Assembly (NCBI GenBank): GCA_020052615.1
Contig: JAGVOT010000128.1
Coordinates: 1 to 64,000, forward strand
Origin: Nitrospirota bacterium
Lineage (GTDB): Bacteria > Nitrospirota > UBA9217
Direction: 5' to 3'
DNA: 64,000 bases
The notes below the pieces were generated by a model. The model saw only the letters and a list, made by a program, of their open reading frames with translations. It did not search any database and was not told the origin of the DNA. The position numbers were made by a program, and so were the translations under genes. Below, piece by piece: positions 36,446 through 64,000 of this stretch (positions are counted from its first letter, which is position 1; each line of letters begins with the position of its first letter).

Positions 36446-39400
36446 TTATTCTGCGTTCGTACGCGTCAAGACTCTTATATCATCCTGATAACCCTGTACC
36501 GGTGTACGGTCGTGTATCTGATCATGGGGATTCAGAAAATACAGCAACGCCTTTATGGAATCCATCTTTTGCTTATCTGAACTTGTACTCCTGACAATTT
36601 TCACGTGCCGCTTCACCTCACGCTCCAACTCCGAATAGTCCTTTCGAGACCGCAACGACCTCAAGAGATCGTATGCATCCTTAATCAGGAGCTGCCAGCG
36701 ATCAGATAGCTTCATTTTCTGAAACAGTCGATCTTCGACGATGGCACTATTATACGGAAACAGGTCGAGCGTCACCGCACTCGGACCTATCCTGCTGAGG
36801 TATGTGTTATCCTTTAACTTCTCCATGAATTCCGTTTGATTAGGTTGGCCAAGAGTTAAGCGATAGAACGTGAGATCACTCATCAATGCATGATACCGGG
36901 GGAACTCCTCGGTTCCGGGCATGGCCAAGATATGCCGGACATAGCCCCTATTACCAACCTTGGCACGAGATGAATAGGTCCAGTGCGGCGACATGCCAAG
37001 GTTTAACCTGTCGTTCCTTTCCGAATAATTTAGAGCATCCTTGTACAAATGGTCCCAATAGAAACCGGAGGGCGTTGCCCCATTATGATTTGCTGCGCTC
37101 ACGATCTCACTGCGCACCCACTGAGAATTGAACCTATTGATCCTTCCCTCTCTCTGCTCGAAATCGACGGGGCTTGATGGCAGATTCCAATGATAGATGT
37201 CCTTACAATATAGATGAAAATCCAGTCCTTCCTGACCAACGGAGGTAGTCACGAGTACGAAGGGCCAAAAAGGCGAATTGAAGGCCTCGCGAATGGAGTT
37301 GCGCGAACTCGTCATCTCGTCAGTCTTCCCGAACAAGGATACTTGCTCGGTCTGTACTATTTTTGGCTTCTTTTTGGCTGTTCGTATCTTGAGTCCGCCG
37401 CCCCTGGGGCCGAAGACGTATGAGAGTTTTAGCAGGATCTTCCTTAGTGACTCTTCGCCCTTGCCGGTCCTTATGTGAAAAATGTATTCATCCAGGACTG
37501 CCTGGATATTTCCGTCCCGACAATACTCCTGCATCTTTCTCGAATAGCTCGATCTCGTGCGTGAACTGGCCAGAACAGCGCGAGCCGTCCCCTCACGATT
37601 AAAGTATGCCTTCCAGTTCCTTAAACAGAAATCTGACAACATCATAAGCAGTTCATCGCTCATTTCTTCGGCCGTGACCACGGGGATCGAGATCAACGAG
37701 CGCAGCAGGCAGACCGCGGGAGATGTCAGTGCGATTGTGGCCAGATCCTCGACCGTTTTCTTTGAAAACGTCCTGCTGGGGCTGCATTGCTCAAGGCGAC
37801 GGATTATATCGAGCGGCATGGCACTGCCGCGCTCCATGACAGAGAGAGAGAACTTGCCTCTGCGCTTCTTGTGTGTGCCAATAATGCTACGAATCAGGCT
37901 GTCATTTTTCGCCAGGTCCATGGCAAAAAGCACTTCCCATGCCTTCGTACCTCCCTTGCCCAGTTTCCAGCCGTTCTGCTCTAGCGAAGTTCTGATCCGC
38001 GTTCTTCCCAGGCTATGCAGCTTATCATACGTTTGGTCTTTCGCTGTAAGGTCGGCGTGCTCTATCAGTCCAGCCAGCCATAAGCTCGGATGCCAGAATC
38101 GTCCCCAGCCGATCAGGCTGTCCTTAAGCGGATGATTGACGAACCATCCCTTCCGCTTCGAAATCTTGCACGCGGACAGCTCGGCTGCGACAAAGCGGGG
38201 AACAAAGCTCCAAGAGGAAAAGACCAGCCCCTTCTTGACCTTCACCTTGTTAAGTTTTTCCAGTGAATAGATGCCGCCTCCGGAGTAATAGGGGCGGGTC
38301 GGAGGGATCCACAGGTATTTCTCAATAGTTCCATCTGCAAGCAGGTCTGATTTCAAGTATTCCAGTTTGCTGTGGATCATGGTCGGCTTCAACGTAGTGT
38401 ACAACGTACGGTCTTTCAATAGTTCTTTGTTCGCCGGTGCCTTCAGACCGTCAAACACCTTGTATTCTTTGTTCATGTACGAGAGCGGTGAATGACCTGA
38501 TCTCCAGAGATGCAGAAAAGACCGTCTGCTGGTCACCGCATTCCGCAGCTTCAGCCACTCCGTCAGATGACAGCTTGTGATGGGATGGATTTCTGACTTC
38601 AGGTATTGCACGGTGAACGACCGTTTGTACGCATCCTCAAAATTGACCCGCTCCGTGCGCGTCATATAACGCATCAACACATGCTCTAGTTCCTTTTTGT
38701 CCCCCAGAACCTTCTCAAGTGTTCCCTCTTTTACATCACGCACAGAATCAGCATATATGGCGATCCTTCTCGCCAGGCCGTCTGCTTCCACCGCCGATCC
38801 GGCCAGAAACACAAGGATCCTTTTTAACTCCTCCACGTGGGCCTCTGCAGCGCCGGGCTGATTGCTTCCCACAAAGCTCCGGTACGGCGTTGCCGTAAGC
38901 AGCAGCGTGGGAATATCTGTCGTCAACACCTCCTTCGCAACTTTATGCGTTAGGCCTTTGGTCTCATCAACTTCGATCAATTTGGGATACTTCTGCACCT
39001 CGTCCAGGATCACCAGGTCAGGTCGGAGGTTCCCAAGGATTGCTTTGGCCATCTGGCGCCGGAGATTGGAAACAAGCTTTCCTCTCTTTACGTTTCCGCT
39101 GCCGTAGGATTTTAATTGCCGCACTAGGTCCCCGTCAGGAGAGCTGGTCCATGTCCTGTCTATCGCTCGACAGACAGACTTCGGCGGCATGTGGGCATTA
39201 TCTTTCGTTCGCACATATGCATCTTCAAAACTGTCGGGGTTAGCCGCCCCCCTAAGCACTTCGAGCAGGATCGGCCGGGGTACCTGATGACGCCGCGCCA
39301 GATACCGTGCGATATAGGCGCGTTCCCGGATATTTCCGGTGCCCCGTTCCAGGTCAAAGGATGTTGCCGGCGTGAGGCTTATGATCTTCAGGCCCTGACG

Positions 39401-39706
39401 TCTGTATCCGTCCGAATAAAGAAGACAGACTCGATCAACGTGCACGACCTCCTTTTCCGGATTGGAACACAGCACGTAGCGGTTCTGTTCAGAGATGTCC
39501 AGACTTGACGACACATAAATGACGCTGAGACTGCCGGTCCCTTTCTGAAGCCCGGCGATGACCTGCGATGCTATCCTCGTCTTTCCGAGACCCACCTCGT
39601 CGGCGACAAGGAACCGCTTGGGGGCCCGCAAACGGTCCCTGAACTGCTTCAGCACCCATGCCACGGTGCACTCCTGGAACGGCAACAGTCCGTTATTCGT
39701 TTGCAT
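36446..39706 (-). CDS. SNF2-like superfamily 2 helicase, last gene of long operon
   Basis: A 1086-residue ATPase. The helicase core shows VADEVGLGKTRIA (Walker A, about 40), LVILDEVQKYPKL (DEVQ box, about 234), LLLTATPYRS (motif III), then a C-terminal RecA domain with VTTSVGQEGLDFHLYCKD and FEQREGRINRFNSQW (motif VI, about 850). An insert of roughly 250 residues separates the two halves. It overlaps the PLD gene (stop at 39693), so the two are coupled. Helicases with a PLD partner occur in several defence systems (DISARM DrmC, Dpd DpdK). DEVQ instead of DEAH is allowed in this group. Confidence 0.88.
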   Translation of the reverse strand: MQTNNGLLPFQECTVAWVLKQFRDRLRAPKRFLVADEVGLGKTRIASQVIAGLQKGTGSLSVIYVSSSLDISEQNRYVLCSNPEKEVVHVDRVCLLYSDGYRRQGLKIISLTPATSFDLERGTGNIRERAYIARYLARRHQVPRPILLEVLRGAANPDSFEDAYVRTKDNAHMPPKSVCRAIDRTWTSSPDGDLVRQLKSYGSGNVKRGKLVSNLRRQMAKAILGNLRPDLVILDEVQKYPKLIEVDETKGLTHKVAKEVLTTDIPTLLLTATPYRSFVGSNQPGAAEAHVEELKRILVFLAGSAVEADGLARRIAIYADSVRDVKEGTLEKVLGDKKELEHVLMRYMTRTERVNFEDAYKRSFTVQYLKSEIHPITSCHLTEWLKLRNAVTSRRSFLHLWRSGHSPLSYMNKEYKVFDGLKAPANKELLKDRTLYTTLKPTMIHSKLEYLKSDLLADGTIEKYLWIPPTRPYYSGGGIYSLEKLNKVKVKKGLVFSSWSFVPRFVAAELSACKISKRKGWFVNHPLKDSLIGWGRFWHPSLWLAGLIEHADLTAKDQTYDKLHSLGRTRIRTSLEQNGWKLGKGGTKAWEVLFAMDLAKNDSLIRSIIGTHKKRRGKFSLSVMERGSAMPLDIIRRLEQCSPSRTFSKKTVEDLATIALTSPAVCLLRSLISIPVVTAEEMSDELLMMLSDFCLRNWKAYFNREGTARAVLASSRTRSSYSRKMQEYCRDGNIQAVLDEYIFHIRTGKGEESLRKILLKLSYVFGPRGGGLKIRTAKKKPKIVQTEQVSLFGKTDEMTSSRNSIREAFNSPFWPFVLVTTSVGQEGLDFHLYCKDIYHWNLPSSPVDFEQREGRINRFNSQWVRSEIVSAANHNGATPSGFYWDHLYKDALNYSERNDRLNLGMSPHWTYSSRAKVGNRGYVRHILAMPGTEEFPRYHALMSDLTFYRLTLGQPNQTEFMEKLKDNTYLSRIGPSAVTLDLFPYNSAIVEDRLFQKMKLSDRWQLLIKDAYDLLRSLRSRKDYSELEREVKRHVKIVRSTSSDKQKMDSIKALLYFLNPHDQIHDRTPVQGYQDDIRVLTRTNAE

Positions 39707-41516
39707 GTATCCCGACCTCATGAAGCGCAGTCTGGAGTCGACGCCAGAATCGCTGCAGCATCAGTGCCTCCTTATTCCCTCTCTTTGCATAGACGCTTAT
39801 CGTCCTTTCGATCATCTCGCGCTGGTGGGAGCTGTCCAGGTCCGACAGCAACAGAGCTTCTACGTAGCTCTCGATCTTTTTGTGTCTCTTCGGTTTCCCG
39901 TTCCCCGGAAGACTCTGACGACTCTCATTGCCGTCCTCTCCAACCGGAGGTATGGGATCCTTCGTAACAAATAGCCTGCCGGGCGACTCGCGCAGCACCG
40001 ATCGGAGCATCTCCCCGAACTTCGTCGCTCTTGCAATCTCCTGGAATACCTCTTCACCGCGTTTTTTGGATCCCCCAATGACCTCTGCGACACTACCAAA
40101 CTCTATAGGAGAAACCCCGACCATCTCAGCACGGACCAAGATGAACGCCGAGGGGGCCTTGGACCGCACCTGCACCCGGGCATACACGTTGATGAAGCTG
40201 CGGAGATCATACACCGTGTCGTCATCGCTGACCTGCAACGTGACCCGGACCTTCGGGTCCCAAGGGCCCACGCTGCCGTTCCATCTCAGCTTCCACACCC
40301 GCCCTGTACGCTTAAGGACGAATGTCCCCGAAGCGAGGTCTGCACGAACCATCTCCAGAGGGAGGCGCTTCTTCTCATCGTCCTGTACATGCAACGAATC
40401 TTCTAGATCGCTATCGTTTAGCCGCCTCAGCCACGGGTACAGCTTGCTTTTACTTCTATCGCGCTTCTTTTCCTGGTAAATAAACTTGTTCTCAAAGTCG
40501 CCAAGCAGGTCCTTGCCGCAGCTCAGCTTGAGCATCGCTTCCACGTTCTTTCCTTCTGACAGCATTCCCGCATTGGTTAGGTTCGCTGACCCGAGATATA
40601 CATCCGTCCCTTTCCCGTCCTTCCGGAGGCATAAGTATAGCTTGGCGTGAAAGTCCATTCCTTCAAGCTTGAAAAGATATGTGTTTTCTTTGATCTTTGG
40701 CAGTGACTCAAGCAGCTGCACATCCTTTATCCCGGCGATCATGGCAGCATCGGTCACGTTGTTCAATTTTTTGAGCGCCTTCATGGCAAGGAACGGGCTG
40801 ACCGCAATGATCTTTTTATACCGCACATTGTCCAGAACAGGAAAACTCGCCCCTTTTCCTCGTTTAGCAATAAAAGCCGCAGTATTGAACGGCTTTGGAG
40901 GTACAAACTCTACAGAAGACAAGTCACGCAATGCCTTGTCGATCAATTGTTTTGCCTTGATACCACTTTTATCCTTGAGCTGTGAGAAAAATCTTTTTAG
41001 GTCTTTGTTCCTCGAGTCGCTGTGCCCACTCCGAGAGCCAACAAGCTCAGCGCAGATCTCCCAAGTCTGTGCCTCAGTCAGGTTCCGGCTCGCAATGAGA
41101 ATCTTCCAAACCGGATCTCCGCTGCGTTCCACGGGATCGAAACGGAACAGCCAGACCTTGGGATGGAACGTCCCTTCCACTTCGTTCGTACTGATCGGGG
41201 TAATGATAGCATCGAGCAGGCTCAGGAGTCGCTGACGCGGCGTCTTTTCAGGTCGGAAGAACTCCTTAGGAAGCTTCATGATGCGGCAGGACTGGCAGAA
41301 CACGATGGCCCGCGCTCCGAATGAATATAGCTTCTGGTAAGAGTCCGCTATATCCAGGGTTTCCTCAGACCGTTGTTCTCCCTGCGTCGCAAGAGCAAGC
41401 GCAATGAGAGCGCTGAAGTCAAGCGTAAATGTCGTGCCGATACAGTAGGTAAGCCGCATGTTCAGCGGCGGCCGCGCGATCTCCAGGAAGGAGCGCTGTT
41501 CTCGGTCAGTGATCAT
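39693..41516 (-). CDS. Phospholipase D-like nuclease-family protein
   Basis: A 607-residue protein with two HKD-like half-sites: GTFHPKVWLFRFD followed by ILIASRNLTEA (about residue 117), and MDFHAKLYLCLRKD followed by DVYLGSANLTNAG (about 287). The H-x-K and following Ser/Asn of the PLD family are kept in both. The C-terminal half is not assigned. The ATG at 41516 overlaps the DUF6361 stop as ATGA. PLD proteins in defence loci act as nucleases or helicase partners; this one is probably coupled to the SNF2-like helicase downstream. Confidence 0.85.
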   Translation of the reverse strand: MITDREQRSFLEIARPPLNMRLTYCIGTTFTLDFSALIALALATQGEQRSEETLDIADSYQKLYSFGARAIVFCQSCRIMKLPKEFFRPEKTPRQRLLSLLDAIITPISTNEVEGTFHPKVWLFRFDPVERSGDPVWKILIASRNLTEAQTWEICAELVGSRSGHSDSRNKDLKRFFSQLKDKSGIKAKQLIDKALRDLSSVEFVPPKPFNTAAFIAKRGKGASFPVLDNVRYKKIIAVSPFLAMKALKKLNNVTDAAMIAGIKDVQLLESLPKIKENTYLFKLEGMDFHAKLYLCLRKDGKGTDVYLGSANLTNAGMLSEGKNVEAMLKLSCGKDLLGDFENKFIYQEKKRDRSKSKLYPWLRRLNDSDLEDSLHVQDDEKKRLPLEMVRADLASGTFVLKRTGRVWKLRWNGSVGPWDPKVRVTLQVSDDDTVYDLRSFINVYARVQVRSKAPSAFILVRAEMVGVSPIEFGSVAEVIGGSKKRGEEVFQEIARATKFGEMLRSVLRESPGRLFVTKDPIPPVGEDGNESRQSLPGNGKPKRHKKIESYVEALLLSDLDSSHQREMIERTISVYAKRGNKEALMLQRFWRRLQTALHEVGIHANE

Positions 41517-42811
41517 TTTCTGACCAATCCCTCCAATATGGCCAAGGCATTTGCCTTCCCCCAGAACCAACGGTAAGTGTACAGATATCGTTCCTTTTGA
41601 ACATCATTGCTGGGCCGCACGTTCTCTGGTACCGCGATGGATCGGTCCCTGAATCGAGATCTGTTGCCCTTCATATTCTCCTCACGGTCCCTCGCGAGCC
41701 TGCCAAGCTTCTTCAATTTATCTTGATCCAGTTTCTCCTCAAACATGGCCGTATGAACGTTTCGGCAAAAAGTGGTCAGTTTGTCATCCATAAGACTGAA
41801 GCTTTTCAGGTTTTCAGAAAAAGCTTTCGCCACGGATTCACTGAGGTCGTCCACGTTCCAGTTTTTCAGTCGCCCTGCGTGTTCTCTCCACTCGAGGTAC
41901 AGCTCCTCGTTCTTCTCCATAAAATGCTTCCAATCATCCTTTACCTTCGGACTTTTACTGGTGTCCGCCCTGTCCCGGCACAGTTCCCACCGGTACGCCA
42001 AAGTCGCCCCCATCGCAAACAGGGAATAACGTTCAGCCTGCTTGAGCAGCGCTGCAAGATCTTTGCTTTCCGGCTTAAGGTCGAAGAGAGACTCCTGCGC
42101 TTTAAGGCGGGAAATACCCAGGTTGAGCAATTCTATGTACAATGAGCGGGGATATTTCGTGTGAAGCCTTTTCTTGAGAAAGTCAGCCTCTTTCTTCTTA
42201 AGCTTGAAATCCATCTTATCCGGCCAGCGGATGTCTTTGATGTCCTTAAACAGGCTTAGAGCAATCGCGCGGTACTCCGGATCGCTGACAAACGCCTCAT
42301 CCCTGACAACCGTGGCATCCCCGTCATCGGAAACAAGCTCGATATCCATGCTGCTCGACAGCTTTTCCAATACCTGACCGCGGTCGTAGTAGCCGCTTCC
42401 TAGCGTCTCAAAAGCATTGAAGGCTGTCCAGTACGTTATGGAGGGCCAATACCGCAGCTCTTCGCCGCGGGTCCTGCCGATGACCCCAGTTGTTTCTCCG
42501 CCTTTTTGCAGACTGATGATGAGTTCCGCCTCTTTTCGCTTCAGCATCCCGAACGGGTCAGGGACACCCCCCTTTTCCTTCATCGCGTACAGGATCGCAG
42601 GTGTAAATATCACATATCGCAGTTCCGTGTGCAGCGTCGATGTGCCCGGAAATAAGAGGTCTGATATCTTCTCGGCCGGATTTCCGAGACCCAGGACATC
42701 AACAGTGGAATCCGGACCAGCGGCAGCAATGATCTCGCGAGCCTTCCGCATATCCTCCTGGGAGAGATACAGCCAGTTCACCTGTGATATTAGTGCAGTA
42801 TTTCGGGACAT
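41513..42811 (-). CDS. DUF6361-family protein
   Basis: A 432-residue protein that I recognise as DUF6361 from its start (QVNWLYLSQEDMRKAREII) and the phrase TLHTELRYVIFTPAILYAM. The middle has GRTRGEELRYWPSITYW. The function of the family is unknown; it is repeatedly found with PLD-like proteins and helicases in defence islands. No nuclease or ATPase motif is visible. GGAGAT precedes the ATG. Its 3' end overlaps the PLD gene by 4 bases, which argues for a fixed-ratio complex. Confidence 0.75.
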   Translation of the reverse strand: MSRNTALISQVNWLYLSQEDMRKAREIIAAAGPDSTVDVLGLGNPAEKISDLLFPGTSTLHTELRYVIFTPAILYAMKEKGGVPDPFGMLKRKEAELIISLQKGGETTGVIGRTRGEELRYWPSITYWTAFNAFETLGSGYYDRGQVLEKLSSSMDIELVSDDGDATVVRDEAFVSDPEYRAIALSLFKDIKDIRWPDKMDFKLKKKEADFLKKRLHTKYPRSLYIELLNLGISRLKAQESLFDLKPESKDLAALLKQAERYSLFAMGATLAYRWELCRDRADTSKSPKVKDDWKHFMEKNEELYLEWREHAGRLKNWNVDDLSESVAKAFSENLKSFSLMDDKLTTFCRNVHTAMFEEKLDQDKLKKLGRLARDREENMKGNRSRFRDRSIAVPENVRPSNDVQKERYLYTYRWFWGKANALAILEGLVRK

Positions 42812-42847
42812 CTATCGTATCTCCATCCAAAAACGCCAATTGACTGT

Positions 42848-43324: not shown

Positions 43325-43348
43325 AGTTACTCCTATTCTAAAGGTAAT

Positions 43349-43963: not shown

Positions 43964-44012
43964 GTTCACCTCGCATTTCTACGCATTTCCATCCTGGGCC
44001 GCGCCGAATCAT

Positions 44013-47000
44013 CTATCCCAGCACTGCCTCCACTTTTGCCACTACCTGAACCTGGCCTTCGTCCTCTGCTGTTATTTCGATCGGTTTGAACTCTGGGTTC
44101 TTCGGTTTCAGCGTGATCTTTATATGTCTCCAGCCGTCAGCTGTTTCGGCCTTTTCACTTTCATAGAACTTGACGGTATATCGCTCTTTGCTCTCCGGAT
44201 CAACCTGATCCCGTAGCAGAACAAGCACTTTCAATCCCTGCCTGCTGCCACCTACTGGGGACGAGAAAAGGCAATACGCGCCGTCCGGGATGATCGGTTC
44301 CATGGAGCGTCCCTTAACCTGAGCCACAAACATGCCTTTAGCCAAATTCCGCTTCGCATCAACCTCCACCCATGTCCAATCATCTCTTTCCAACTCGTTG
44401 ATATACTGCGGATCGCCAAACGCCCCTGCTGCGGCTTTGAGCGGCACGAGCGGTACGCACGACACGTACTTTTCTGCTTCTATCGGCTGAACGATCTTGA
44501 GCACGAAACGCTTTGCTGACTCTGCGCCGCTCCTTGCCTTCTCGAACCAGGAAGTATCACTCCTCAACTTGTCCCGCAGCTCTTTGGCATCAAGATACCC
44601 GGCAAGCCGTCGAAAGTGCCGCTGCATAGCCCCCGGATCGTCGAGGTCCACCTTCGTTATTTCGATGATCTCGTAGCCGTTGCTCCTTAGCCAGTCACGG
44701 ATTCGGCGGTCCTGCTCCGCGTGCTCAGGGTTGCCGTGGATATGGCCGCTCAGGCCGTCGAGGTAAATGCATACGCCCTCGTTCTCATCGTGGTGAGGCG
44801 CCCGATAGATCACATCCGGCGTTGTCGTGCCGATGGTCCTGTCGAGCCGGATCTGCTGTCCCCGGATACCCTCCTCGAATCCCGCTGCGAGAAGCAGATG
44901 CCTCAGTTTTCGCTCAGCCTCGTTGACGGGTTGGGCTCCGCCGTCGGCAGCGGCCTGCTGCGGCTGCACCGGAGGGATCGGATGTGACACGGTTAGTCGT
45001 GGCCCCCAAGCATCAAAACGCTCTTTTGCCGCGTTCCGATCAAGGAACTTATGATAGAAACCGTTCCTGAACGTCTGAAGGCAATCGATGCACGAGGTCT
45101 CGCATGCCGCAGGACAGTCCTCGACGATCTGCTTTGCCGCAGCCACTATCTCCTCGAACCGCTCGCAGATCAGGTCCAGCAAGCCCGATCCTCCGGGCAT
45201 GGGATCCCAGAGCAGTGCGTCCACATCTTCCCGGTCAACGTGGCCTATCACAAGCACCTGCAGATCATCCATGTGCATATCCAGTACTCGCGTGGCTGCG
45301 GATCGCAGCGTCTCCAAAACACTGTACGCGGTGGTCTGGTCCTGACACGCAGGCAGCGAGATCACATCAGCCGTGATGTCGGCGTAGAACCCCACAGGCA
45401 CTACGTCCTTCCCGCACCGCTCCAGGTGGCCTGTGTTAAAAGAGTCCCTCTGCCGTTCAGAAGAGAGCGGCGAGATGCTCTGACCGCAGACCGTGCAGAC
45501 CGGATACCCGAATATCGCCTCTTCCCGCCTGATGGCACTTGAGGCGCCAACATTCACCAGCCTTAGTCTAACACCTCGCCGATGGTGCACACTCTGGCTT
45601 CCCCACGTATAGGCTTTCCCACCATTGTGCTGGTTCCGTTCCAGGCCGTACACGGCGACACCCATCTGGAACCGCAGCTCCTCCTCGTCGGAAATATGCG
45701 ATTGGTGCAGCAGGTCCACATCGCAGACAGAGATCGCCTGCAGGACCGTTGTGCCCAGTGCTCCGGCCGCAACTCCCAGCCGCGTCTCCTTGACCGCCTG
45801 ATGCTCCGTGGATACCTCGAAGACCGGCATCTCGATCCGCTTTTCGTCAATGTCGCGGTGGAACCTGCGGGCCACGAACTTGTTGCCGTTTGCGTAGATG
45901 AGGTTACCCGGCACGTACTCGCGCAAGGCAACGCTCGGTGTGCGCGGCAGAGTGAACTCCATTGCTCCGGTGCGCCAATAGGGGATCTCGGCAGTTCCTA
46001 GCACTGCTCCCACTTCCAGACCGTAGCCCGGCAGGAAACCCTCGGCAGCCAGCACGCCAAAGGTATTCACGTCGTCGTACCCCTCTGCTTCGCGCCTGGC
46101 CCTCGGCGCAGTGCCCTTCAGCCGCTTCACCAATGAATTGCACCGTCGGAAAAGGGATTCGTCCTCCTGGTCAAGGTCGCCCTGTCGTTCCCGCAAGGCG
46201 TTCAGGCGTTTGATCTGGTCCATTGCCCAGCTCAGCCGCCGCTCAAGCCGTGCAACGACCTCTTCGAGGCCATGCACAAAGCCTTCGATGTGGCTCCGAA
46301 GAACCTCCGGTGCGGTGACCTCAGCATCCCCCGCAGGCCATCCCTGGCAGAACGCCCCTTCAACGTAGGTGCAGAGGTCTCCCAGATTACGCTCGATCAC
46401 GGCCTGCAGCGGACTAAAATCAAAGGGCCTTTCGCGAACCATTCCTTCCTCGAACAGATAGGATGACACGCGGTCAGGCAGGCACTTGCGCAGGACATCG
46501 TCGATCTGTGTGCGATCAGCTTCCGCTCTCTTTACGTCGTTCACGTACTGGTGCATTCGCGTCATCACGGTCGCGTGCACGTGCTTCGAGATCATGAGGT
46601 CGTTCCGCAGGTTGAATGCCGGGGGATCTACCCGTCCGGCAAGTAGCTTGAGCGGATCGGCGAAGTAAGAGCGGTCGTGAGAGACCGGGCGGCAGTAGGT
46701 CATATCTACCGCCATGCGGTGGCGTCTGCCTGCCCGCCCGGCCCGCTGCCAGTAGTTTGCAGGCAGCGGCGGCACATTACGCATGAGGACAGCGTCCAGT
46801 TGACCGATGTCCACGCCCAACTCCAGCGTGGGCGTGCAAACGAATGCGTTGACCGCGTCCGATTCTCCCTTGAAGAGGTTCTCAAGCCGCTCCCGTTCCT
46901 CATGTGGCACCATGGCAGTGTGCTCTTCCGGCCTGAGCATGGAGTATTTCTGATCAAGGATCTGCAGGTTGTAATTGTCCGGATCCTCTCGCACGAACTC

Positions 47001-55066: not shown

Positions 55067-58000
55067 GCAGCACCTCCGGGAAGAAGTATTTCAACAACCA
55101 CCGGAAATACCTGCACTGTTCCTGACAGGGAATGGCGTTTTGGCAGCAGATTCTTGATTATGCGCTCGCGCTCACGCTCGAGCTGTCCTCGTACTTCTTC
55201 ATAGTGTTTCGTCCTGCGGGTGATCTCTGCTGACTTCTCCTCAATGGATCGTTCGATAGCCTCCATCCGCTCCGCCTCTTCAAAGAGCAGGCCCTGCTGC
55301 CGCTCCTTCATCAGCTTTTCCACCTCACGTTCGAGCTTCGCGAGCGTGTTCTCAGCAATAAGGCTCGACACCTCAGCCTGGCGACTGCGGTAACGTGCGT
55401 CTTCATTTTTTCGTGCGAGAACGCCGTCCGTCTCGAGTTGTTTTTGCATATCAGCGGTGATCTGTTCCGCGTGGTTTCTCAGGAATGCCTTCAAGTCCGG
55501 TTCTACGTCCTCAAATATGTCTCGGGCACGTCCATATTGATCAGGTTCGAGTATGGATCCCGCTGCGCGGAACTCGATTGCCGGGCGATGCGGAAGCTGA
55601 TCACGGAGCTTGCCTTGTTTAACGGGAAAAACCATCGTTCGCACCCAGTGATGAAAAGACTCCCTCAGGTCGTTAACAGCAAGTTCCTCAACGCTGAGCA
55701 GAATGAGGGCATCGGATCCCTTCGGAACGTCGCCAAACCGCGCTGTCCAGCGCGACACGGACTCACCAGTCCCGGGGAAGCGCCTTCGGGTGAGCGAACC
55801 GATGGACTTTTGCATCATGGGATGGGAGAGGTGCACCATCTGCACGTCCTTGCGGGGTGAGAAGACTGTCCTGCCACCAACGTTTTCAAGAAAGGGATTC
55901 GCACTAAAGGCCAGCCGCTTTACCGCGCCCCCGCCGGTTCTCCCGGTCCTCTGTCGTAGCGAATCGTCTATAACGTCAGTCCAGCCCGGTAAACCGGGAT
56001 TAAGCAGCTTGCAGGTTTGTTCTTCTTCCGAACATTCGAGTTGGGGCCTGCCTGCGCGTATAGACATGGCAGCCTCGAGCGTGTCCCGAAGCGCTCCTGG
56101 GTCATGGTCGATCTCGGCTGCTATGGCCTTGATCGCCTTCTCCGCTCCCGCCTCATCAGCTCCGGCATGGATAGTGGCGTCTGCGTCGATTGCCGCCCGC
56201 CCCCTGGCCCTTTCAACACGGCGGTCAAGGTCCGCTTTAACCACTGCGAGATCTTCGCCGTTTACAAGCCTCCGATGGGTAGCCTCGTCGAAAAGTTCGT
56301 TGGCTGATCCGAGGTCCTCGCGGATCTCGTCGGCTTTGCGAATGACGTGGGACAGGAAGTTGAGGTCCTGGTCCTGATCGCTCACGAAGTGGTGGATCGT
56401 CACATCCCGCGCTTGGCCGTGACGGTCGATGCGACCGTTACGCTGCTCGAGCCGGGAGGGGTTCCAGGGGCAATCGTAGTGGAGCATGTAGCGTGCAGTC
56501 CTCTGCAGGTTGAGACCCTCCGCAGCAGCATCTGTGGCGAGCAAGATGCGGACTTTGTGCACGGGATCGTTGAAAGCCAGTTTAATATTGTCGCGGTCAA
56601 CGTCGTCCATTCCACCGTAGAGCGTCAGGATCCGGTCTTCCTCGAATCTGCCCCGAAGGCGCCTCGCGAGGTAATCGAGGGTAGTCTTGTATTCGGTGAA
56701 GACGACCAGCCTTTCGTCGTCGCGCCACTTTCCCTTTGCGAGTAGCAGCTCACCAATGAGCGAAACAAATGCTTCGAACCGAGCGTCAGAAGCAGGTTCC
56801 TGGTCGACTATTTCATTGCGTCTCAGGTCGAAGCCCAGCGATGACACAGCATCGTCTATGGCCGTGATCGGGCCTTGCAACTCTCTGGCGACCGTCATGA
56901 GCCATGCGCCCACAATGCCAGCTGCCGTGGCTTCCCGCGATTGTGTCTCGCGGTCGTCCCCCGTCTCCTGCCGCAAGCTGCGCTCGGCAGCAGAAACCTC
57001 GCCTTCAGTCGCAGCCTCCATCGCCGCGAGGCCCTCCTTGCAGCGCCGCCAGGATTCGGCAAATGCCGTGGGACAGCTCAATAGCCTCTTTCCAAGGATC
57101 TCTACCGCAAAGCTGCCGGACCGGCGCTTCCTGCGCTCGCCCCCGGCTATGAGCGTCTTCACTTCCTTGCGAAATACATCGAATGCGGCACCCAAGGCCG
57201 CCTCAGCAGGCGTCATTTGGAGCAGGAGTGCTTTGGGTGCAAGGCGCGTGCAGAACTTTGGTGGATTCGTGCGAGCGTTGATCTCTCGCTTCAGCCGCCT
57301 GATAACAACCTGCTGGATGCGTTCCCTCTCGGCAGGTTTGAGCTCGCTCGTTTGGCTGAAACGAACCGGGTCAAGAATCTCAAGAAGCCCGGTGAAGCAC
57401 CGAGTGTGCCCGTTGTGAGGTGTGGCGCTCAGGAAGAGCCGATGTTCGAACTGAGGGGTGAGAAGCCGCAGCATGCGGCAGAGGTCGCTGTCGTCCCCGA
57501 AGGCCGAGGGCATGAGGTTGTGGCACTCGTCAACGATGAGCAGGTCCCATGGCAGACGCGGCGAGCCCTCCGGCGTACGGCATGCCGCGAGGAATTGTTC
57601 CAGAACATCCTCCTGTCGCAGGTAGTGGTACGACGCGATGATGCGGCTGAAGGACCGCCACGGATTGGCGTCCATTCCCAGCCGCTTGCGCAGGTTGTGG
57701 GTCTCTGACCTGTCAACGAAGTCAAAGGGCAGCGAGAAGCAGCCCCACATCTCGTCACGCCACTGCAATTTTAGCGACGCGGGAGTGAGGATCAGCACTC
57801 GCTGGATTCGGCGACGGAGCAGGAGCTCGCTCAAGATCAGCCCAGCCTCGATGGTTTTGCCCAACCCTACGTCGTCGGCGATCATCAGATTGACCCGCGG
57901 CATGCGGAGAGCCTTGAGGAGCGGAACGAGTTGATAGTCCTCTATCTGGATGGCTCCATGAAAAGGGCTCGATACTGGAAGCCGGTCCAGCGGGCCTTCT

Positions 58001-58314
58001 TTGTCAGGGTCAAGATAAGGAAGTGCCGCGCTCCAGCGTGCAGCACGCAGAATTGCATCAAAATCGGCCCCTGGCATTGCATCTGCCGCAATGTCCGGCA
58101 GGGTTGTCGGCTCAAGTAGTTTTGCACGCGGCTCAAGCTCCCACAGGAGTTGTTCGCTGTTCGGAAGTTGTTCATCCTTGTATTCGAGGTGAACGAGATG
58201 AAGCCTTCCGGAGTCACCGTCATAGGGTTCCACCGCCGTGACAATGCCGCGTCGATTGCGAACAGTGGCGAACATGCCAATGCGGGGAATCTGAAATGGT
58301 TGAGTTTCTGGCAT
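55063..58314 (-). CDS. DrmD-like SNF2 helicase (DISARM class 1 type)
   Basis: A 1083-residue SNF2/RapA-like ATPase. The N-terminal small beta domain (PRIGMFATVRNRRGIVTAVE) and overall length match DrmD of class 1 DISARM. Motifs are DDVGLGKTIEAGLILSELL (about 148), LIVDECHNLMPSAF (about 263), LFLSATPHNG, TDAAAEGLNLQ (about 595) and QRNGRIDRHGQ (about 627). The last 120 residues are a coiled coil (KLEREVEKLMKERQQGLLFE). It is co-transcribed with the methyltransferase (4-base overlap). It probably translocates on unmodified invading DNA; the biochemical role is inferred from family. Confidence 0.88.
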   Translation of the reverse strand: MPETQPFQIPRIGMFATVRNRRGIVTAVEPYDGDSGRLHLVHLEYKDEQLPNSEQLLWELEPRAKLLEPTTLPDIAADAMPGADFDAILRAARWSAALPYLDPDKEGPLDRLPVSSPFHGAIQIEDYQLVPLLKALRMPRVNLMIADDVGLGKTIEAGLILSELLLRRRIQRVLILTPASLKLQWRDEMWGCFSLPFDFVDRSETHNLRKRLGMDANPWRSFSRIIASYHYLRQEDVLEQFLAACRTPEGSPRLPWDLLIVDECHNLMPSAFGDDSDLCRMLRLLTPQFEHRLFLSATPHNGHTRCFTGLLEILDPVRFSQTSELKPAERERIQQVVIRRLKREINARTNPPKFCTRLAPKALLLQMTPAEAALGAAFDVFRKEVKTLIAGGERRKRRSGSFAVEILGKRLLSCPTAFAESWRRCKEGLAAMEAATEGEVSAAERSLRQETGDDRETQSREATAAGIVGAWLMTVARELQGPITAIDDAVSSLGFDLRRNEIVDQEPASDARFEAFVSLIGELLLAKGKWRDDERLVVFTEYKTTLDYLARRLRGRFEEDRILTLYGGMDDVDRDNIKLAFNDPVHKVRILLATDAAAEGLNLQRTARYMLHYDCPWNPSRLEQRNGRIDRHGQARDVTIHHFVSDQDQDLNFLSHVIRKADEIREDLGSANELFDEATHRRLVNGEDLAVVKADLDRRVERARGRAAIDADATIHAGADEAGAEKAIKAIAAEIDHDPGALRDTLEAAMSIRAGRPQLECSEEEQTCKLLNPGLPGWTDVIDDSLRQRTGRTGGGAVKRLAFSANPFLENVGGRTVFSPRKDVQMVHLSHPMMQKSIGSLTRRRFPGTGESVSRWTARFGDVPKGSDALILLSVEELAVNDLRESFHHWVRTMVFPVKQGKLRDQLPHRPAIEFRAAGSILEPDQYGRARDIFEDVEPDLKAFLRNHAEQITADMQKQLETDGVLARKNEDARYRSRQAEVSSLIAENTLAKLEREVEKLMKERQQGLLFEEAERMEAIERSIEEKSAEITRRTKHYEEVRGQLERERERIIKNLLPKRHSLSGTVQVFPVVVEILLPGGAA

Positions 58315-58341
58315 CAGCTGATACCTCTTTGAACCATTGGT

Positions 58342-60768
58342 TTAAGAAAGCATAATCCTGTTACCACCAAGTAATTCAGCATGATTTGGGTGGCAGGTAA
58401 AGATCAATATTTGTTTGCTTTTCGAATATTCTTTAATAAAATCGGATGCCTTTTTCTGTCTCACCGGATCCATATTCACCAAAGGATCATCCATAACGAG
58501 AAAGCCTTTCGACTCTTTCAAAAAATGGTTCGCCATGGCCAACCTGAGCGCGATCGAGAACACGTCCTTAGTCCCTGCTGAAAGGTAATCATACGGAAGC
58601 GTCTTCCCGTCCTTTCGAACGAACCCTTGGGGCAGGGTCTCATTCATTGCAACTGTCTCATACTTCTTTCCTGTTAAGTGCGAGACGTACTCTTCCACGT
58701 CTTTTTTGATTCCGCCATCAGACCCGGAGTCAAGATCTCCAAGCACCTTTTCGGTCATCTCGATAACTCTCGCAATAGCCTCGCCTTTTCTCTTCACACG
58801 AATGAACCCAGCCTCTGCTTCGGCAAGCTGCTTTTCCAGCTCTTCCGCCGAGACCTCAGGCATTTCCCCTTCCATTCTTGCCCGTTCGATCATGAGTCCA
58901 TCGCGTTTTTCCTTCGTTTCAGACCAAATTAGAAGCGCTTCGTCATATTTACCAGTAAACGTATCGAGATCGTCAACTCCTGGCGGAGGTGCAGGGAGTT
59001 TTCCAAGCTTTTCTTCTATATTGTTCACCTTTGCAACGCATTGGGCAAGTTCAAGAAGAAGCTTTGTCTTATCGCCATATTTTATCTGGTACTGACCCAC
59101 CGTTTGTTTGTGGGCTTGGAAATCTATCTCTAACTGCTTCATTTCTGCCTTTGTCTGCTCCAGGTCAGTAATAATATCTACGAGAGATCTCAGATTTTCC
59201 TCTTTACCCAGAGCATCTGCCTGCGATTTAAGCTCCTCAAATGCAACCTCACCCAGCTCAGCTGTCAAAATATTGGCGTGTTTTTCGACTTCCTTAACCT
59301 GCTGTTCATAGATGCGGCTAACATCCCGAGCATCACCGACATTTGCGACTCCGTGCTGCTGCAACAGATTCAGGAATTGCTGTTCCGCTTTGGTGAAATC
59401 ATCAAGAAGTGTCTGTATGCTGCCCTTGCCGGAAGTGATCTCCATGCGCCAATCAGGATGGACCAGCCTGACGAGGCCTCCGGCGTCTATCGAATGATTG
59501 TTGCCCTGCGCTATGCTGATTGCAGATTCAGCATCCAGATCCTTAGTTATAGACAATCCCAGGTCATTAAGCGCCGTAATGGTCACAGATAGTTTTCCTG
59601 CTGTGATCCCGGCCTTAATGCGCTCAACCGTTGTTTGCGTATCGACGATCTCCTCAAACTCTTTTTTCCCGAGTTTTTTCGTTTTCAGAAGTGCTTTCTG
59701 CGCTTCGTCATGCTTCTCATTCATCTCCGACACCTTCTTGAAACGGTCCCGGAGCTTGCGATTCATTTCTTCTTTTTCCGCCGCGATTTTCTCCTGTTCG
59801 AGCTTCTCTGATTCCTTCGTTAATAACGGGGATTTTGCAGTAAGTTCCTGCATTTTGCTCTCTCGGACAGGCCAATCTGAATTTACCTGTATAATGACAT
59901 CCATCTTCGCCTGATTACCGTCTTTTTCCGCATTCAGCGTGCGCCGCTCCTTTACCCCTTCCACAATCTTGGAATTATCCTGGATATAAAGATCCTTCTC
60001 GCTGATAGCCTTCGATAGTTCGATGATCTTTCCGTTGATGCGGTCAAACTCTTCCTCAAGACGCATCGTTTCGGCAAGCCTTGACGCTATCTTTTCCTTG
60101 TCGTAAAAGGCCTGTAGGATCAGGCCGACTTCCTTTGCCCATTCATTTTCGATTCCCCTACCCTTTTCGGGATACTGAGCGACTTTGTCCCAATGGCTGA
60201 AATACTCGTGATGGGATACTAATATCTTCTCTTTGAACTGCTCGATAGAAACACCATCAGTCTCGAACACCGCTTTTCGGAGGATATCACCAAGTCCCTG
60301 GACCGTCTCAGCATGATCGGTCTTCAGTTCCTCAAGCGTCCTGCCTAAGCCTGACTGATAAGTCATGAGAATAGCTTTAAATGTCCCCGGTGTTGCAGGA
60401 AAGAGCTTGTCCAATTCCTCTGCGATCTGCGAGTCATCGGTCAACATAGAACCGCCGGGTGATATGAGCTTAGCCGATTTCGTTCCACCCCATGTCTTGC
60501 TCAAGGTATAGGCATTCCCATTCAGAGCAAAAGAAAGCTCGACGTGCATGGTATCACCCCCCAGGGGGCAAAAACGCTCCATCTTTTCACTTTTGTACTG
60601 GGGTTTCGTCAGCTTAGAGGCTGTGAACAGGACCTTCTGGAGCCCGTGGAAAGCTGTGGACTTGCCTGCCTCATTCGGCCCCAGAATTACATTTAGGCCC
60701 TCATTGAAAGCGATTTCCTTATTGCTGAAGAAACCAAAGGGATCAAGCTTTAATCGGGTGATGATCAT
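58342..60768 (-). CDS. SMC/Rad50-like ATPase (YhaN type)
   Basis: An 808-residue ABC-type ATPase with a head, long coiled coil, head layout. The N-terminal head reads LDPFGFFSNKEIAFNEGLNV, then GPNEAGKST (Walker A). Coiled coils of Glu/Lys-rich helices run from about 200 to 640. The C-terminal head has LSAGTKDVFSIALRLAMANH (signature, about 726) and GFLVMDDPLVNMDP (Walker B and D-loop, about 757). No CxxC zinc hook is visible at the coil apex, unlike SbcC/Rad50, so YhaN is the nearer model. It overlaps the Mre11-like gene as ATGA, so the two form a nuclease complex. Confidence 0.9.
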   Translation of the reverse strand: MIITRLKLDPFGFFSNKEIAFNEGLNVILGPNEAGKSTAFHGLQKVLFTASKLTKPQYKSEKMERFCPLGGDTMHVELSFALNGNAYTLSKTWGGTKSAKLISPGGSMLTDDSQIAEELDKLFPATPGTFKAILMTYQSGLGRTLEELKTDHAETVQGLGDILRKAVFETDGVSIEQFKEKILVSHHEYFSHWDKVAQYPEKGRGIENEWAKEVGLILQAFYDKEKIASRLAETMRLEEEFDRINGKIIELSKAISEKDLYIQDNSKIVEGVKERRTLNAEKDGNQAKMDVIIQVNSDWPVRESKMQELTAKSPLLTKESEKLEQEKIAAEKEEMNRKLRDRFKKVSEMNEKHDEAQKALLKTKKLGKKEFEEIVDTQTTVERIKAGITAGKLSVTITALNDLGLSITKDLDAESAISIAQGNNHSIDAGGLVRLVHPDWRMEITSGKGSIQTLLDDFTKAEQQFLNLLQQHGVANVGDARDVSRIYEQQVKEVEKHANILTAELGEVAFEELKSQADALGKEENLRSLVDIITDLEQTKAEMKQLEIDFQAHKQTVGQYQIKYGDKTKLLLELAQCVAKVNNIEEKLGKLPAPPPGVDDLDTFTGKYDEALLIWSETKEKRDGLMIERARMEGEMPEVSAEELEKQLAEAEAGFIRVKRKGEAIARVIEMTEKVLGDLDSGSDGGIKKDVEEYVSHLTGKKYETVAMNETLPQGFVRKDGKTLPYDYLSAGTKDVFSIALRLAMANHFLKESKGFLVMDDPLVNMDPVRQKKASDFIKEYSKSKQILIFTCHPNHAELLGGNRIMLS

Positions 60769-61880
60769 TCCTTCACCTCCCCGATCAAGTTATAGGCCAT
60801 TTGAAGCGCGTCTCGGTCCCCGGTCCCGGACAATTCCAAGAGAAGTCGATGGGGAAATGACCCTTCTGTGAATTCGGCATTAATCACATCAGCTGTGATT
60901 TGCTCGGAAACGTCGTCGCCATCCCACTCAAGATACAAGAGCCGTTCTTTCAGCACTTTTCTAACTTCCTGGATGTTGGCGAAATCGTCCTTCGGTATGC
61001 TACCGCTAAGCTTTACCTTCAGCAATGCCATTTTGCTGCTGTCTTGGTCGTATTTCTGCTTAAGCACATTGGTATCGACTATACCATTGACTTCGATATT
61101 CTCATGTATGAAGGAGTAGATACCGCATGATATTGGTTCTGCCTTGATCTTCTTATCATCACCAATTTCTAGTAACCAGGCTGCGCCCTGATGGTCACAG
61201 TCAAATCCATCTGGCTCCGGCGTACCGGGATAAAAGATCCTATCCGAAGCTCCTGGTGCGGCTGGAAATCGAATATGAGTATGGCCGAGCAACCAGAGAT
61301 CAAGACCCGAAGCATGCAATTCCGCTTCGGTCATAGGATAATACTTACCATCAAAGTCCGGAGAGAAGCCAGCAAGACTGCCGTGTGCCACACCTATATG
61401 ATGCAGTATGCTCTTGTCTTTCTCTGTTCCTGCGATCCATCCAACTGCATTCTCGCTTGAGTGTTTTTTCGTGCATGGCGCCGGATATAAGAATGCATTC
61501 AGATCGTAGGCGTGGAGTGAATATGGTTCATCCTTGTCGAGCAAGAGAATATTATCTATTCCGCTCCCTTTGAAGTATGACCATAGGTCGTCTTGCATGC
61601 CGGTTTTGAAATCATGATTGCCGGGAAGGACGGCTACGAGCTTGCCTTCAAATTCCTTAAGTGCTTGAACCGCACGTAGTACATCCTTTTTCGCGACCTT
61701 TACCTGGTTAAAAAGATCTCCTGCAACAACAAAAAGGTCGCAGCTCTTCTCATTTGCCACCGCAACCAGCCGTTTCAATGTCGCAAACCTAGCCTCAATG
61801 AGTTCCGCCTGAACCTCAGGATAGCCGGAGAACTTCATCCCTAGATGGAGGTCGGAGGTGTGGAAGATTCTTAACGACAT
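60765..61880 (-). CDS. Mre11/SbcD/YhaO-like calcineurin-fold nuclease
   Basis: A 371-residue metallophosphoesterase. All metal-binding motifs are present: FHTSDLHLGMKF, VVAGDLFNQ, VLPGNHDFK, IGVAHGSLAGF and LLGHTHIRFP. The start at 61880 (MSLRIFHTSD) has GGAG upstream and gives the family-typical N-terminus. The C-terminal part carries the Rad50-binding tail. Its stop overlaps the ATPase start by 4 bases. The pair should process DNA ends or hairpins. It is not near sbcCD in size or in its partner's hook, so this is a specialised copy. Confidence 0.93.
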   Translation of the reverse strand: MSLRIFHTSDLHLGMKFSGYPEVQAELIEARFATLKRLVAVANEKSCDLFVVAGDLFNQVKVAKKDVLRAVQALKEFEGKLVAVLPGNHDFKTGMQDDLWSYFKGSGIDNILLLDKDEPYSLHAYDLNAFLYPAPCTKKHSSENAVGWIAGTEKDKSILHHIGVAHGSLAGFSPDFDGKYYPMTEAELHASGLDLWLLGHTHIRFPAAPGASDRIFYPGTPEPDGFDCDHQGAAWLLEIGDDKKIKAEPISCGIYSFIHENIEVNGIVDTNVLKQKYDQDSSKMALLKVKLSGSIPKDDFANIQEVRKVLKERLLYLEWDGDDVSEQITADVINAEFTEGSFPHRLLLELSGTGDRDALQMAYNLIGEVKE

Positions 61881-61982
61881 GATTTCTCCATGATTTCCCG
61901 TAGATTGCTGATAGCGCGTATTTGATGCGATCAAAACATATATTAGGCCCTGCGTACAAAGAGCCGTGAGATATTTCAACAC

Positions 61983-63323
61983 CTACATCTCATCAAAGGG
62001 CACGAACGACCTTTCCATCTGGAACGGCGGCGGTATTGTTCTTATCTCACTCGGGTTCTTTACTTCGCTAATCGATAGTCTGTTATTTGATAGACCATAT
62101 GCGACGAGCAAAAATGGCAGGTCTTTATCCACTAACGATGCTCCCGATGCCGTCAGCAAGTCGCTCGGCTTATCCAACGCTATAATTTTGATCACCTGTT
62201 CCGCTGCAGAAAGACAGTTTCTGTTCACATAGGGATGCACAGTCATTTTATTCCTCACTTGCGTCACCTGGCTGCCGCCGCCGAAGACGAAGATATTGAG
62301 TGTCTTCCACTGATTAACATCCTTCTGTTTGGAATAAGCGATACCCCATGCTGTTTCCACCGCTTCATGCATTAGATTAACATATTTCCCGCATTCTACA
62401 GAAAGATCGGGGTGACTTATCAACATGCTATCCTCATTACTACGAAAATCCAGCAACCCATGTTTTTGCATAATTTCGTCGATACAGTCCATTCCAACGG
62501 CATCAGAAGTGGCTCCAAAAAAAGCAAATCCATCTTTCTGCCATCGACCCGTTGTGGCGTCGTGTCGCTCAGTGATGCGGAAGATGCTGGCGTTGGTCGT
62601 ACCAGCACCGATGTCAGCTTTCGCATAAAGACCCTGTTTTATATTGGGCGACGTGAATGCCCATGTAAGCGCGGACTCAGCCTCAGTCCGCAACCAATCG
62701 CGCACCGAATTGGTATCTGGCACGCGTTTTTTTTGTACCTCGTTTCTCGCCTGCTCCGACAGTTCTTGCAGTCGATCAATAGACAGAAGACCTCCACGAA
62801 TAATTTTCCCATCTTGGTGTTTGAGCAGCCAATACGCGCTACGAATCACTTCAAGGAAACCTTCTCGCAACACTGTGTCACTGAAAAAGCTCATCGGGAT
62901 TCCCATGGTGATTTGCAGCTTAATATCGTTGCGGCTGGCACCATAGAACTTCTCTATCCTCAGATGGGCTAATTCAGCTAGATACCAAACAGTGGCAATT
63001 GCGATGTCACGTGCACTTACACCATCTGGGAACGAGATGATCTCGCCGTAATAATATTTTTTATCATGCTGTTTGATCTCCTCTGCCAGCCTCATTTTTA
63101 TGCTGTAATACACATCCCAATCATCGGTTCCTGTTGCCTCGTGACCGCCGAACACAAATTCACGTGTCTTCTTATTAAATGCAACATTGGTAGGCACACG
63201 ATAATCCCCATTGATATCGTCGATCACATAGGACCGCTCCCCGCCGACCGCCTGATAGTCGCGGAAGACCATTTTTGCAGAACTAGTGCCATAATCCAGA
63301 CCGAGCTGTATATACTTGATCAT
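61983..63323 (-). CDS. Actin/Hsp70-fold ATPase
   Basis: A 446-residue protein of the actin/Hsp70/ParM superfamily. Phosphate-1 is LGLDYGTSSAKMVF (residues 7-20), phosphate-2 is KADIGAGTTNASIFRI and the adenosine motif is IFVFGGGSQVTQVRNKM. It has no peptide-binding domain, so it is nearer to ParM/MreB-like or stand-alone Hsp70-like ATPases than to DnaK. The ATG overlaps the stop of the upstream gene as ATGA. A 102-base gap follows before the Mre11-like gene. It could polymerise or act as a switch that licenses the complex; unknown. Confidence 0.85.
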   Translation of the reverse strand: MIKYIQLGLDYGTSSAKMVFRDYQAVGGERSYVIDDINGDYRVPTNVAFNKKTREFVFGGHEATGTDDWDVYYSIKMRLAEEIKQHDKKYYYGEIISFPDGVSARDIAIATVWYLAELAHLRIEKFYGASRNDIKLQITMGIPMSFFSDTVLREGFLEVIRSAYWLLKHQDGKIIRGGLLSIDRLQELSEQARNEVQKKRVPDTNSVRDWLRTEAESALTWAFTSPNIKQGLYAKADIGAGTTNASIFRITERHDATTGRWQKDGFAFFGATSDAVGMDCIDEIMQKHGLLDFRSNEDSMLISHPDLSVECGKYVNLMHEAVETAWGIAYSKQKDVNQWKTLNIFVFGGGSQVTQVRNKMTVHPYVNRNCLSAAEQVIKIIALDKPSDLLTASGASLVDKDLPFLLVAYGLSNNRLSISEVKNPSEIRTIPPPFQMERSFVPFDEM

Positions 63324-64000
63324 GCAGTGCGTTCCTCCACGATAAGAATGCCTGCAGCCACCTCTTCGCTTTCTGGCTCCTTCCATTTTAGAAGACTAAT
63401 ACTGCGTTCCATGGCGGTCGAGAGCTCATCATTCGCCTTCCTGATTTTTGCTTCCGCGAGCCGCAGAGGCAAAGGAAGTTTGTTGCCTTCTAAAAGTTTC
63501 TGGTGCCTCTCCTTCGCCTTTTTGAGTCTTAACTCCAGCGTGGCTCTCAACGTAGCCGATTGTTGTTCGTATCGGATTTCATCTAACTTTCGTTCCCTTT
63601 CGCTTGACTCATGCCTCAATCTTTCTAACTCGCTTATTAGACGTTTTTTGACCTCTGCCACACCGTGTCCATCAATCGAAGGCTCAGGTGAACTTATTCC
63701 ATTTTCTAACATATGGAGCAATATGGGGATAGTCTTCTCATGATCGGATATTGCTGAACCTCCTCGGAATGGAACAAGTACAATGATCATCCTGGTACTC
63801 GGACGCCGCGAAGCGATCTCCAAGTTCATTATTAGGAATCCATATATTCCTTGTTCTAGTAGTCCAGGTATGCTCGGCACCGAGAGACAAAACGCAGCCT
63901 GTCTGCGTTCGTTTGTTTTTTCGTATTTTGAAACTGCGAAAAGGACCAACGGATGGCGGAAGTGTACGAGATCAGAATTCACATGTCGATGAGCTATTTC
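63320..64000 (-). CDS. Coiled-coil protein (5' end outside window)
   Basis: The frame stays open to the right edge. A GTG at 63982 exists but the codons before it remain sensible, so the true start is probably outside. The 220+ visible residues have a beta-rich first part (HPLVLFAVSKYEK, GIYGFLIMNLEIA, STRMIIVLVPF) and a charged coiled coil (LISELERLRHESSERERKLD, LRLKKAKERHQKL). The family is not recognised. The stop overlaps the actin-like ATPase start, which makes them likely partners. Confidence 0.7.
   Translation of the reverse strand, partial: EIAHRHVNSDLVHFRHPLVLFAVSKYEKTNERRQAAFCLSVPSIPGLLEQGIYGFLIMNLEIASRRPSTRMIIVLVPFRGGSAISDHEKTIPILLHMLENGISSPEPSIDGHGVAEVKKRLISELERLRHESSERERKLDEIRYEQQSATLRATLELRLKKAKERHQKLLEGNKLPLPLRLAEAKIRKANDELSTAMERSISLLKWKEPESEEVAAGILIVEERTA

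Follow-up and report, generated by a model that had tools for sequence, protein, structure and literature searches.

Does a run of closely packed defence-type genes in a Nitrospirota bacterium encode one anti-phage system, or several systems joined in one transcription unit? The run lies on contig JAGVOT010000128.1, and the window analysed here comprises positions 1-64,000 of that contig, which has 239,927 bases. From 36446 to the right edge of the window the minus strand carries every large open reading frame, as had been noticed in an earlier reading made without database searches (the sequence-only reading). The gene cut at the edge reaches contig position 66418, so that the run is 36446-66418 and contains twelve complete minus-strand genes with minimal gaps. 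It begins 2.4 kb past the window's right edge and is about 30 kb long; the twelve-gene run of the sequence-only reading thus stands, with its extent of about 27.5 kb corrected.

We read the locus, with a probability of about three in four, as a composite anti-phage super-operon: independently mobile modules stacked under shared expression, not one machine. Four modules and two small orphan genes follow one another from the 5′ end: an SNF2 helicase with an ASKHA (actin/Hsp70-fold) ATPase, a Mre11/Rad50-like pair, ArmA-ArmB-ArmC of the ARMADA system, an orphan with a PD-(D/E)XK-like protein, and ZacA-ZacB-ZacC of the Azaca system (Table 1). The evidence comprises observed gene content, order and spacing, recurrence in other genomes, compositional breaks and, within ArmC, LexA-type residues and fold.

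First, the modules recur apart. Scanning GTDB contigs with ArmB gave 73 loci, and the ArmABC block occurs in dozens of loci at 38-78% identity, in Acidobacteriota, Pseudomonadota, Myxococcota, Thermodesulfobacteriota, Cyanobacteriota, Binatota, Gemmatimonadota, Verrucomicrobiota, Planctomycetota and archaea. None of the 73 contains the Mre11/Rad50-like pair, and none has Azaca within the same run; at least 2.5 kb of flank was available upstream for 46 loci and downstream for 14, so that the lack of Azaca behind ArmC is judged from these 14. Azaca, for its part, stands alone on three plasmids examined (L007-L009). Any two of the modules SNF2-ASKHA, ARMADA and Azaca(-like) were seen together somewhere and the full set only here, a pattern that argues for a composite super-operon and against one system. 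The sequence-only reading had offered two options, two fused systems or a single new one, and had named recurrence of the two halves only separately as evidence against its proposal. This is largely what we found, with ARMADA alone in nearly all 73 loci, save that pairwise combinations do recur; fusion is the better of the two options. That no described system has the full set also holds, except that the run ends in a known one, Azaca, made up of its last three genes.

The pairwise combinations take several forms. SNF2-ASKHA lies directly upstream of ArmA in L043. In L032 and L070, PLD and helicase genes directly precede ARMADA, forming in L032 an Azaca-like trio with a gene for 443 amino acids (aa), and they are homologous to genes of the Azaca-like trio that follows SNF2-ASKHA in L113. 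In L047, ZacC is convergent behind ArmC; ZacC-like genes were found in 7 of 44 ARMADA genomes searched. The co-directional cases (L043, L032, L070 and L113), together with stops and starts that overlap or nearly touch even across module borders, would suit a single integrated twelve-gene system in which the helicases, the ASKHA ATPase and the Mre11/Rad50-like pair feed the ARMADA and Azaca nucleases and the LexA-like domain of ArmC serves as one trigger. We consider such a system improbable: the full set is found nowhere else, ARMADA lacks the other modules in nearly all loci, Azaca occurs alone on plasmids, composition breaks at the module borders, and Mre11/Rad50-like pairs from the same phylum have no ARMADA within the stretches examined.

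Second, base composition changes along the run. GC content at third codon positions (GC3) is 0.45-0.53 in the SNF2, ASKHA, Mre11 and Rad50 genes, 0.57-0.70 in ArmA-C, 0.47-0.49 in the two orphans and 0.62-0.64 in ZacA-C. These steps fall on the borders that homology defines and speak for a run assembled out of pieces with different histories. There is no step between SNF2-ASKHA and the Mre11/Rad50-like pair, and these two may therefore have arrived together.

Third, spacing leaves little room for separate expression. Re-measurement confirmed 4-base stop/start overlaps for SNF2/ASKHA (63320), Mre11/Rad50 (60765), ArmA/ArmB (55063) and ZacA/ZacB (41513); a fifth proposed overlap, ZacB/ZacC at 39693, amounts to 14 or 29 bases. 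The remaining gaps measure 27, 11, 43, 24 and 36 bases, the first separating Rad50 from ArmA and the last three lying between ArmC and ZacA. A largest gap of 102 bases, reported previously, applies between the ASKHA and Mre11 genes only if Mre11 starts at the internal ATG 61880; with GTG 61982 the gap is 0. Upstream of the SNF2 gene is a 334-base gap, beyond which lies a minus-strand group with an FtsZ-like gene. Internal promoters or terminators that split the unit would count against the sequence-only reading; promoter-like matches are at the shuffled level (9 versus 8.4; 6 versus 9.5) and, with terminator-like matches above shuffles at 35-50 kb (23 versus 12.8), no minus-strand terminator-like site falls in any gap between operon genes. 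From the spacing we infer one predicted transcript, from SNF2 to ZacC.

These measurements bear on ordinary defence-island clustering, by which neighbouring systems would be co-oriented by chance and served by several promoters. Defence-type genes and an integrase gene do lie nearby, the ArmB/ArmC junction and the flanks carry different genes in relatives, and in L047 ZacC is convergent to ARMADA. We nonetheless judge clustering unlikely, given 4-base overlaps and 0-43-base gaps across borders, which leave little room for promoters or terminators, and gaps free of minus-strand terminator-like sites.

Table 1. Genes, domains and signals of the run (window positions unless marked as contig; all on the minus strand)
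Feature	Position	Strand	Evidence
SNF2/DrmD-like helicase, first gene of run, 1032 aa	contig 63320-66418 (window 63320-64000 = C-terminal part)	-	SNF2-rel_dom + Helicase_C 5.7e-21; PADLOC DrmD PDLC02623 1.3e-138
ASKHA (actin/Hsp70-fold) ATPase, 446 aa	61983-63323	-	GxDxGT, DxGxxT, GGG, AYGL motifs; profile
Mre11/SbcD-like metallophosphoesterase, 371 aa (405 aa if GTG 61982 start)	60765-61880	-	Metallophos 8.5e-16; SbcD/Mre11 in PDB; DxH, GD, GNHD, GHTH
Rad50/SMC-like ATPase, 808 aa	58342-60768	-	AAA_27/SMC_N 1e-12; Rad50 in PDB 2.3e-13; Walker A + signature motif
ArmA, BrxHII/DrmD-like SNF2 helicase, 1083 aa	55063-58314	-	PADLOC DrmD 7e-199, BrxHII 1.4e-75
ArmB, PglX/type-IIG-like adenine methyltransferase, 1702 aa	49958-55066	-	Eco57I 3e-20; PADLOC REase_MTase_IIG 1381 bits, DrmMI 415 bits; DPGCGSG, NPPW
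ArmC, YprA-like helicase + DUF1998/MZB + Vsr-type nuclease region + LexA-like tail, 1977 aa	44013-49946	-	DEAD, Helicase_C, MZB, Peptidase_S24; DruE 1.2e-104
ArmC residues 1690-1821, Vsr-type PD-(D/E)XK nuclease region	44484-44879	-	TTPD...YLDG...HxHG conserved among relatives
ArmC residues 1822-1977, LexA/UmuD-like S24 domain, Ala1840-Gly1841, Ser1881, Lys1926	44016-44483	-	PF00717 2.7e-6 + fold
Orphan gene, 206 aa	43349-43969	-	no Pfam, PADLOC or NCBIfam match
Small PD-(D/E)XK-like protein, 158 aa	42848-43324	-	E...DFI...VQVK pattern; weak PADLOC PDC-M02A 5.7e-4
ZacA (DUF6361), 432 aa	41513-42811	-	PADLOC ZacA 6.7e-65; DUF6361 3.2e-25
ZacB (PLD nuclease, two HxK...NLT motifs), 607 aa	39693-41516	-	PADLOC ZacB 6.9e-72
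ZacC helicase, 1091 aa, last gene of run	36446-39721	-	PADLOC ZacC 4.7e-188 across nearly whole model
Terminator-like hairpin 3′ of ZacC	36067-36053	-	consensus match only

Catalytic motifs are intact among the genes checked. The sequence-only assignments of Mre11/Rad50-like, DrmD-like, methylase, DUF1998, DUF6361, PD-(D/E)XK and PLD genes were all borne out. Its 'second SNF2 helicase' is ZacC, and the run holds three SNF2/RapA-like helicases and one YprA-like helicase.

The core of the run, judged by homology, is an ARMADA Type I locus in reversed order, as its gene set and order match the published description (PMC12458937). Shared with that description are the BrxHII-like helicase, the PglX-like methylase and the YprA-like helicase with DUF1998 and, as a candidate, a C-terminal Vsr-type nuclease; the fused DUF1998/MZB, a Type I feature, is present in ArmC. 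A Foldseek search with the ArmC 1690-1977 model matched the LexA half only, and the Vsr-type label refers to the conserved motif. The run contains no gene for ArmD, the GajB-like helicase with a RelE-like domain that follows ArmC and marks Type II. Bell et al. (2025; PMC12458937) report the reversed Type I order from many archaea and cyanobacteria, and the clade of the present ArmC likewise includes both. This locus differs in the LexA/UmuD-like domain after the ArmC nuclease region and in being embedded between other modules. In many relatives (L016-L088) the ArmB/ArmC interval is an insertion slot, holding PIF1/RecD-like genes, kinase-UPF1 with PLD, UvrD with Fic, AbiEii, a reverse transcriptase, or a methyltransferase with GmrSD. 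Separately, a Synechocystis plasmid carries an ARMADA locus (L006:13802-31242) that is split over many frames and interrupted by an IS701-type transposase gene.

The middle of the run had previously been matched in part to DISARM class 1 and Hma. Profile matches to DrmD and DrmMI, and the corresponding likeness of its helicase and methylase, would favour a DISARM class 1 (or Hma) locus carrying additional genes, an explanation to which we give hardly any weight. DISARM was rejected because the DrmA helicase and DrmB DUF1998 genes are not separate and no DrmC PLD gene adjoins; here helicase and DUF1998 share one protein, closest to DruE, with a nuclease region and a LexA-like tail, and the block is ARMADA, described in 2025. 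Hma was dropped with HmaA at 226 bits against 661 bits for DrmD (best candidate) and no Hma partner among the matches. Membership in Druantia was also considered and dropped.

The tail of ArmC is the one element that, as far as could be checked, has not been described before in a known kind of system. Pfam places Peptidase_S24 at residues 1860-1972. An AlphaFold2 model of residues 1690-1977 (13 sequences; predicted local distance difference test (pLDDT) 77.9) had as its best Foldseek matches in the PDB a cleavable lambda repressor fragment (E 5.5e-5), LexA and UmuD′ (TM-score 0.72 by target length). The S24 domain recurs in 12 relatives, and every row that covers these positions keeps the Ala-Gly pair, the serine of GxSMEP and the lysine of [YF]TxK. 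In ArmC the glycine and serine are 40 residues apart and the serine and lysine 45, close to the roughly 37 and 43 of lambda CI. The domain thus resembles the S24 peptidases LexA, UmuD and lambda repressor in fold, residues and spacing, and differs in sitting at the C terminus of a helicase-nuclease and not on a DNA-binding repressor or polymerase subunit. Rows with S24 group together on the ArmC tree: 5 changes account for the domain, shuffling gave a mean of 10.6, and none of 500 shuffles had so few. Of the 13 such rows, 12 fall in one 15-row clade (Shimodaira-Hasegawa-like approximate likelihood-ratio test 99), with L047 a separate case. The tail is typical of one multi-phylum ArmC clade; three of the clade's rows lack S24, of which L035 and L036 are truncated where a contig or locus stops, and L059 is apparently a real absence. 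The genome encodes RecA, along with two further S24 proteins about the size of LexA. Neither S24 nor LexA, peptidase, protease or SOS is mentioned in the main text of PMC12458937.

From the modelled fold and conserved residues, the tail suggests RecA/SOS-triggered control of an immune helicase-nuclease. A widespread ARMADA clade may carry a working LexA-type self-cleavage switch that would place an immune nuclease under the direct control of RecA filaments assembled on damaged or phage DNA and would here govern the core of the super-operon; we put this at somewhat less than an even chance.

Five points weigh against these readings. The recurring pairwise combinations (L043, L032, L070, L113 and L047) indicate that association is not pure accident and may mean functional coupling beyond stacking. 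GC3 varies inside modules too (ArmB 0.565). S24 is absent from L059 and from the cyanobacterial clade, so that ARMADA can do without it. A LexA-type fold with its residues is no proof of cleavage: the same fold occurs in signal peptidases, and dimerisation may be all that an S24 domain does. Finally, cleavage could either activate or silence ArmC.

SNF2-ASKHA is a portable pair found beside varied restriction-type effectors. Phosphate-1, phosphate-2 and adenosine motifs of the ASKHA fold are present, and GxDxGT, DxGxxT, GGG and AYGL are kept in 13 relatives. These motifs, with family-profile matches in the PDB to Hsp70/BiP (3e-5), DnaK and ParM, make the earlier actin-fold call right at family level; an AlphaFold model (two sequences, pLDDT 30.5) was too poor to use. 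The pair was first met on plasmids. Close ASKHA relatives were absent from the sample of its own phylum and, by single-sequence tblastn, from plasmids; relatives were reached through SNF2 neighbours and then through a profile, which matched in 8 of 244 cyanobacterial genomes and in 5 of 399 from the phylum to which the L043 host belongs (seeds counted). A full-length SNF2 homologue adjoins ASKHA in 8 of the 10 non-seed loci examined, one a near copy of a seed; the other two (G514, G592) have only shorter genes of weak similarity. Neighbours include McrB/McrC (L114, L115), an MmeI-type methylase with helicases (L107), RecD-like and HKD-SNF2 genes (L112), a PLD gene (L014) and, in L113, PLD and helicase genes (ZacB profile 3.8e-16); L106 is a further locus with the pair, beside genes of these or other kinds. 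A profile test did not prove ZacA-like status for the 444-aa protein of L113 or the 557-aa protein of L014. Viral contigs scanned for patterns taken from the single ASKHA, ArmB and SNF2 sequences gave no match. Literature searches on ASKHA with Mre11 and DISARM, and on SNF2 with Hsp70/actin-like proteins in defence, returned no paper describing the set or the pair. Hsp70-like ATPases are fused to, or encoded with, McrB/McrC homologues in McrBC/CoCoNuT systems (PMC11090510), a comparable tie between an Hsp70/actin-fold ATPase and restriction genes; here, by contrast, ASKHA has its own gene, forms a pair with an SNF2 helicase and turns up next to several unrelated effectors.

The Mre11/Rad50-like pair shares its nuclease and ABC-ATPase motifs and its paired genes with SbcCD and Mre11-Rad50, and differs in a short Rad50, in which a motif check found no zinc-hook CxxC, and in its place among defence genes. 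The pair occurs in three other genomes of the phylum (56/49, 56/43 and 51/41% identity); a Rad50 search in a sample of another phylum was empty and uninformative. In one relative, the pair precedes genes that, read by motif, look BREX-like (P-loop protein of 1267 aa, AlbA-like, methylase, SNF2 and PglZ-like).

ZacABC is, by profile, a complete Azaca system, a type reportedly described by Millman et al. in 2022: the DUF6361, PLD and helicase genes stand in the same order with near full-length matches. It differs in forming the tail of a larger operon, with two small orphan genes before ZacA; the 206-aa orphan has no relative in the 73 ARMADA loci. As a separate observation, a Mesorhizobium conjugative plasmid (L005:17296-40769) has, in one co-directional stretch, Azaca together with AbiE genes and an operon that begins with YprA (YprA, SNF2, methylase, SMC, HNH).

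Around the run lie further defence-type genes. At window 22893-28732 (plus strand), three overlapping genes of 41-44% GC, the last with a phage-integrase domain, resemble a recombinase trio at the edge of the defence island. An Hsp70-TPR protein immediately followed by a UvrD/GajB-like helicase (29313-32971, minus strand) makes a second ASKHA-plus-helicase pair of the island, and an ARPP-1 domain protein (PF20208, 3.6e-88; 33889-35025, minus strand) lies just 3′ of the operon. Directly upstream of the operon (L002:6754-11456, contig 66753-71455, minus strand) are FtsZ-like, AIG2-like and 159-aa genes and a double AAA ATPase (IetA-like); the FtsZ-like gene, at 238.9 bits, falls short of the 295.2 required for the FtsZ equivalog. 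A NERD nuclease-helicase protein (L002:13188-14870, plus strand; PADLOC RTasNERD-Hel 2.5e-60) lies near a WYL regulator.

In the composite super-operon, the modules would act mostly independently against invading DNA from a shared transcript. Tested ARMADA Type II gives non-abortive protection that requires all four genes and the ArmB NPPW motif (PMC12458937). By homology to it, ArmB would mark self DNA or read marks, while ArmA and ArmC would translocate on unmarked DNA for the Vsr-type domain to cut, the cell not being killed. The Mre11/Rad50-like pair may process DNA ends, Azaca would cut through its PLD nuclease and helicase, and SNF2-ASKHA could remodel DNA or protein complexes for whichever effector is its neighbour. 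In the S24 clade the ArmC tail would most likely be a switch; we tentatively propose, with the odds slightly against it, that RecA filaments, once formed on damaged DNA or DNA of a phage, trigger cleavage at Ala1840-Gly1841, whereupon the last 137 residues would detach and helicase-nuclease activity would change.

The locus would be a clear case of several phage-defence systems joined in one expression unit, and the SNF2-ASKHA pair of cyanobacteria and proteobacteria resembles a portable helper, not yet named, for many restriction-type systems. Control of the kind proposed for ArmC was not found described for ARMADA, DISARM or Druantia; if the tail works, it would join the SOS response to a DNA-targeting immune effector within one polypeptide.

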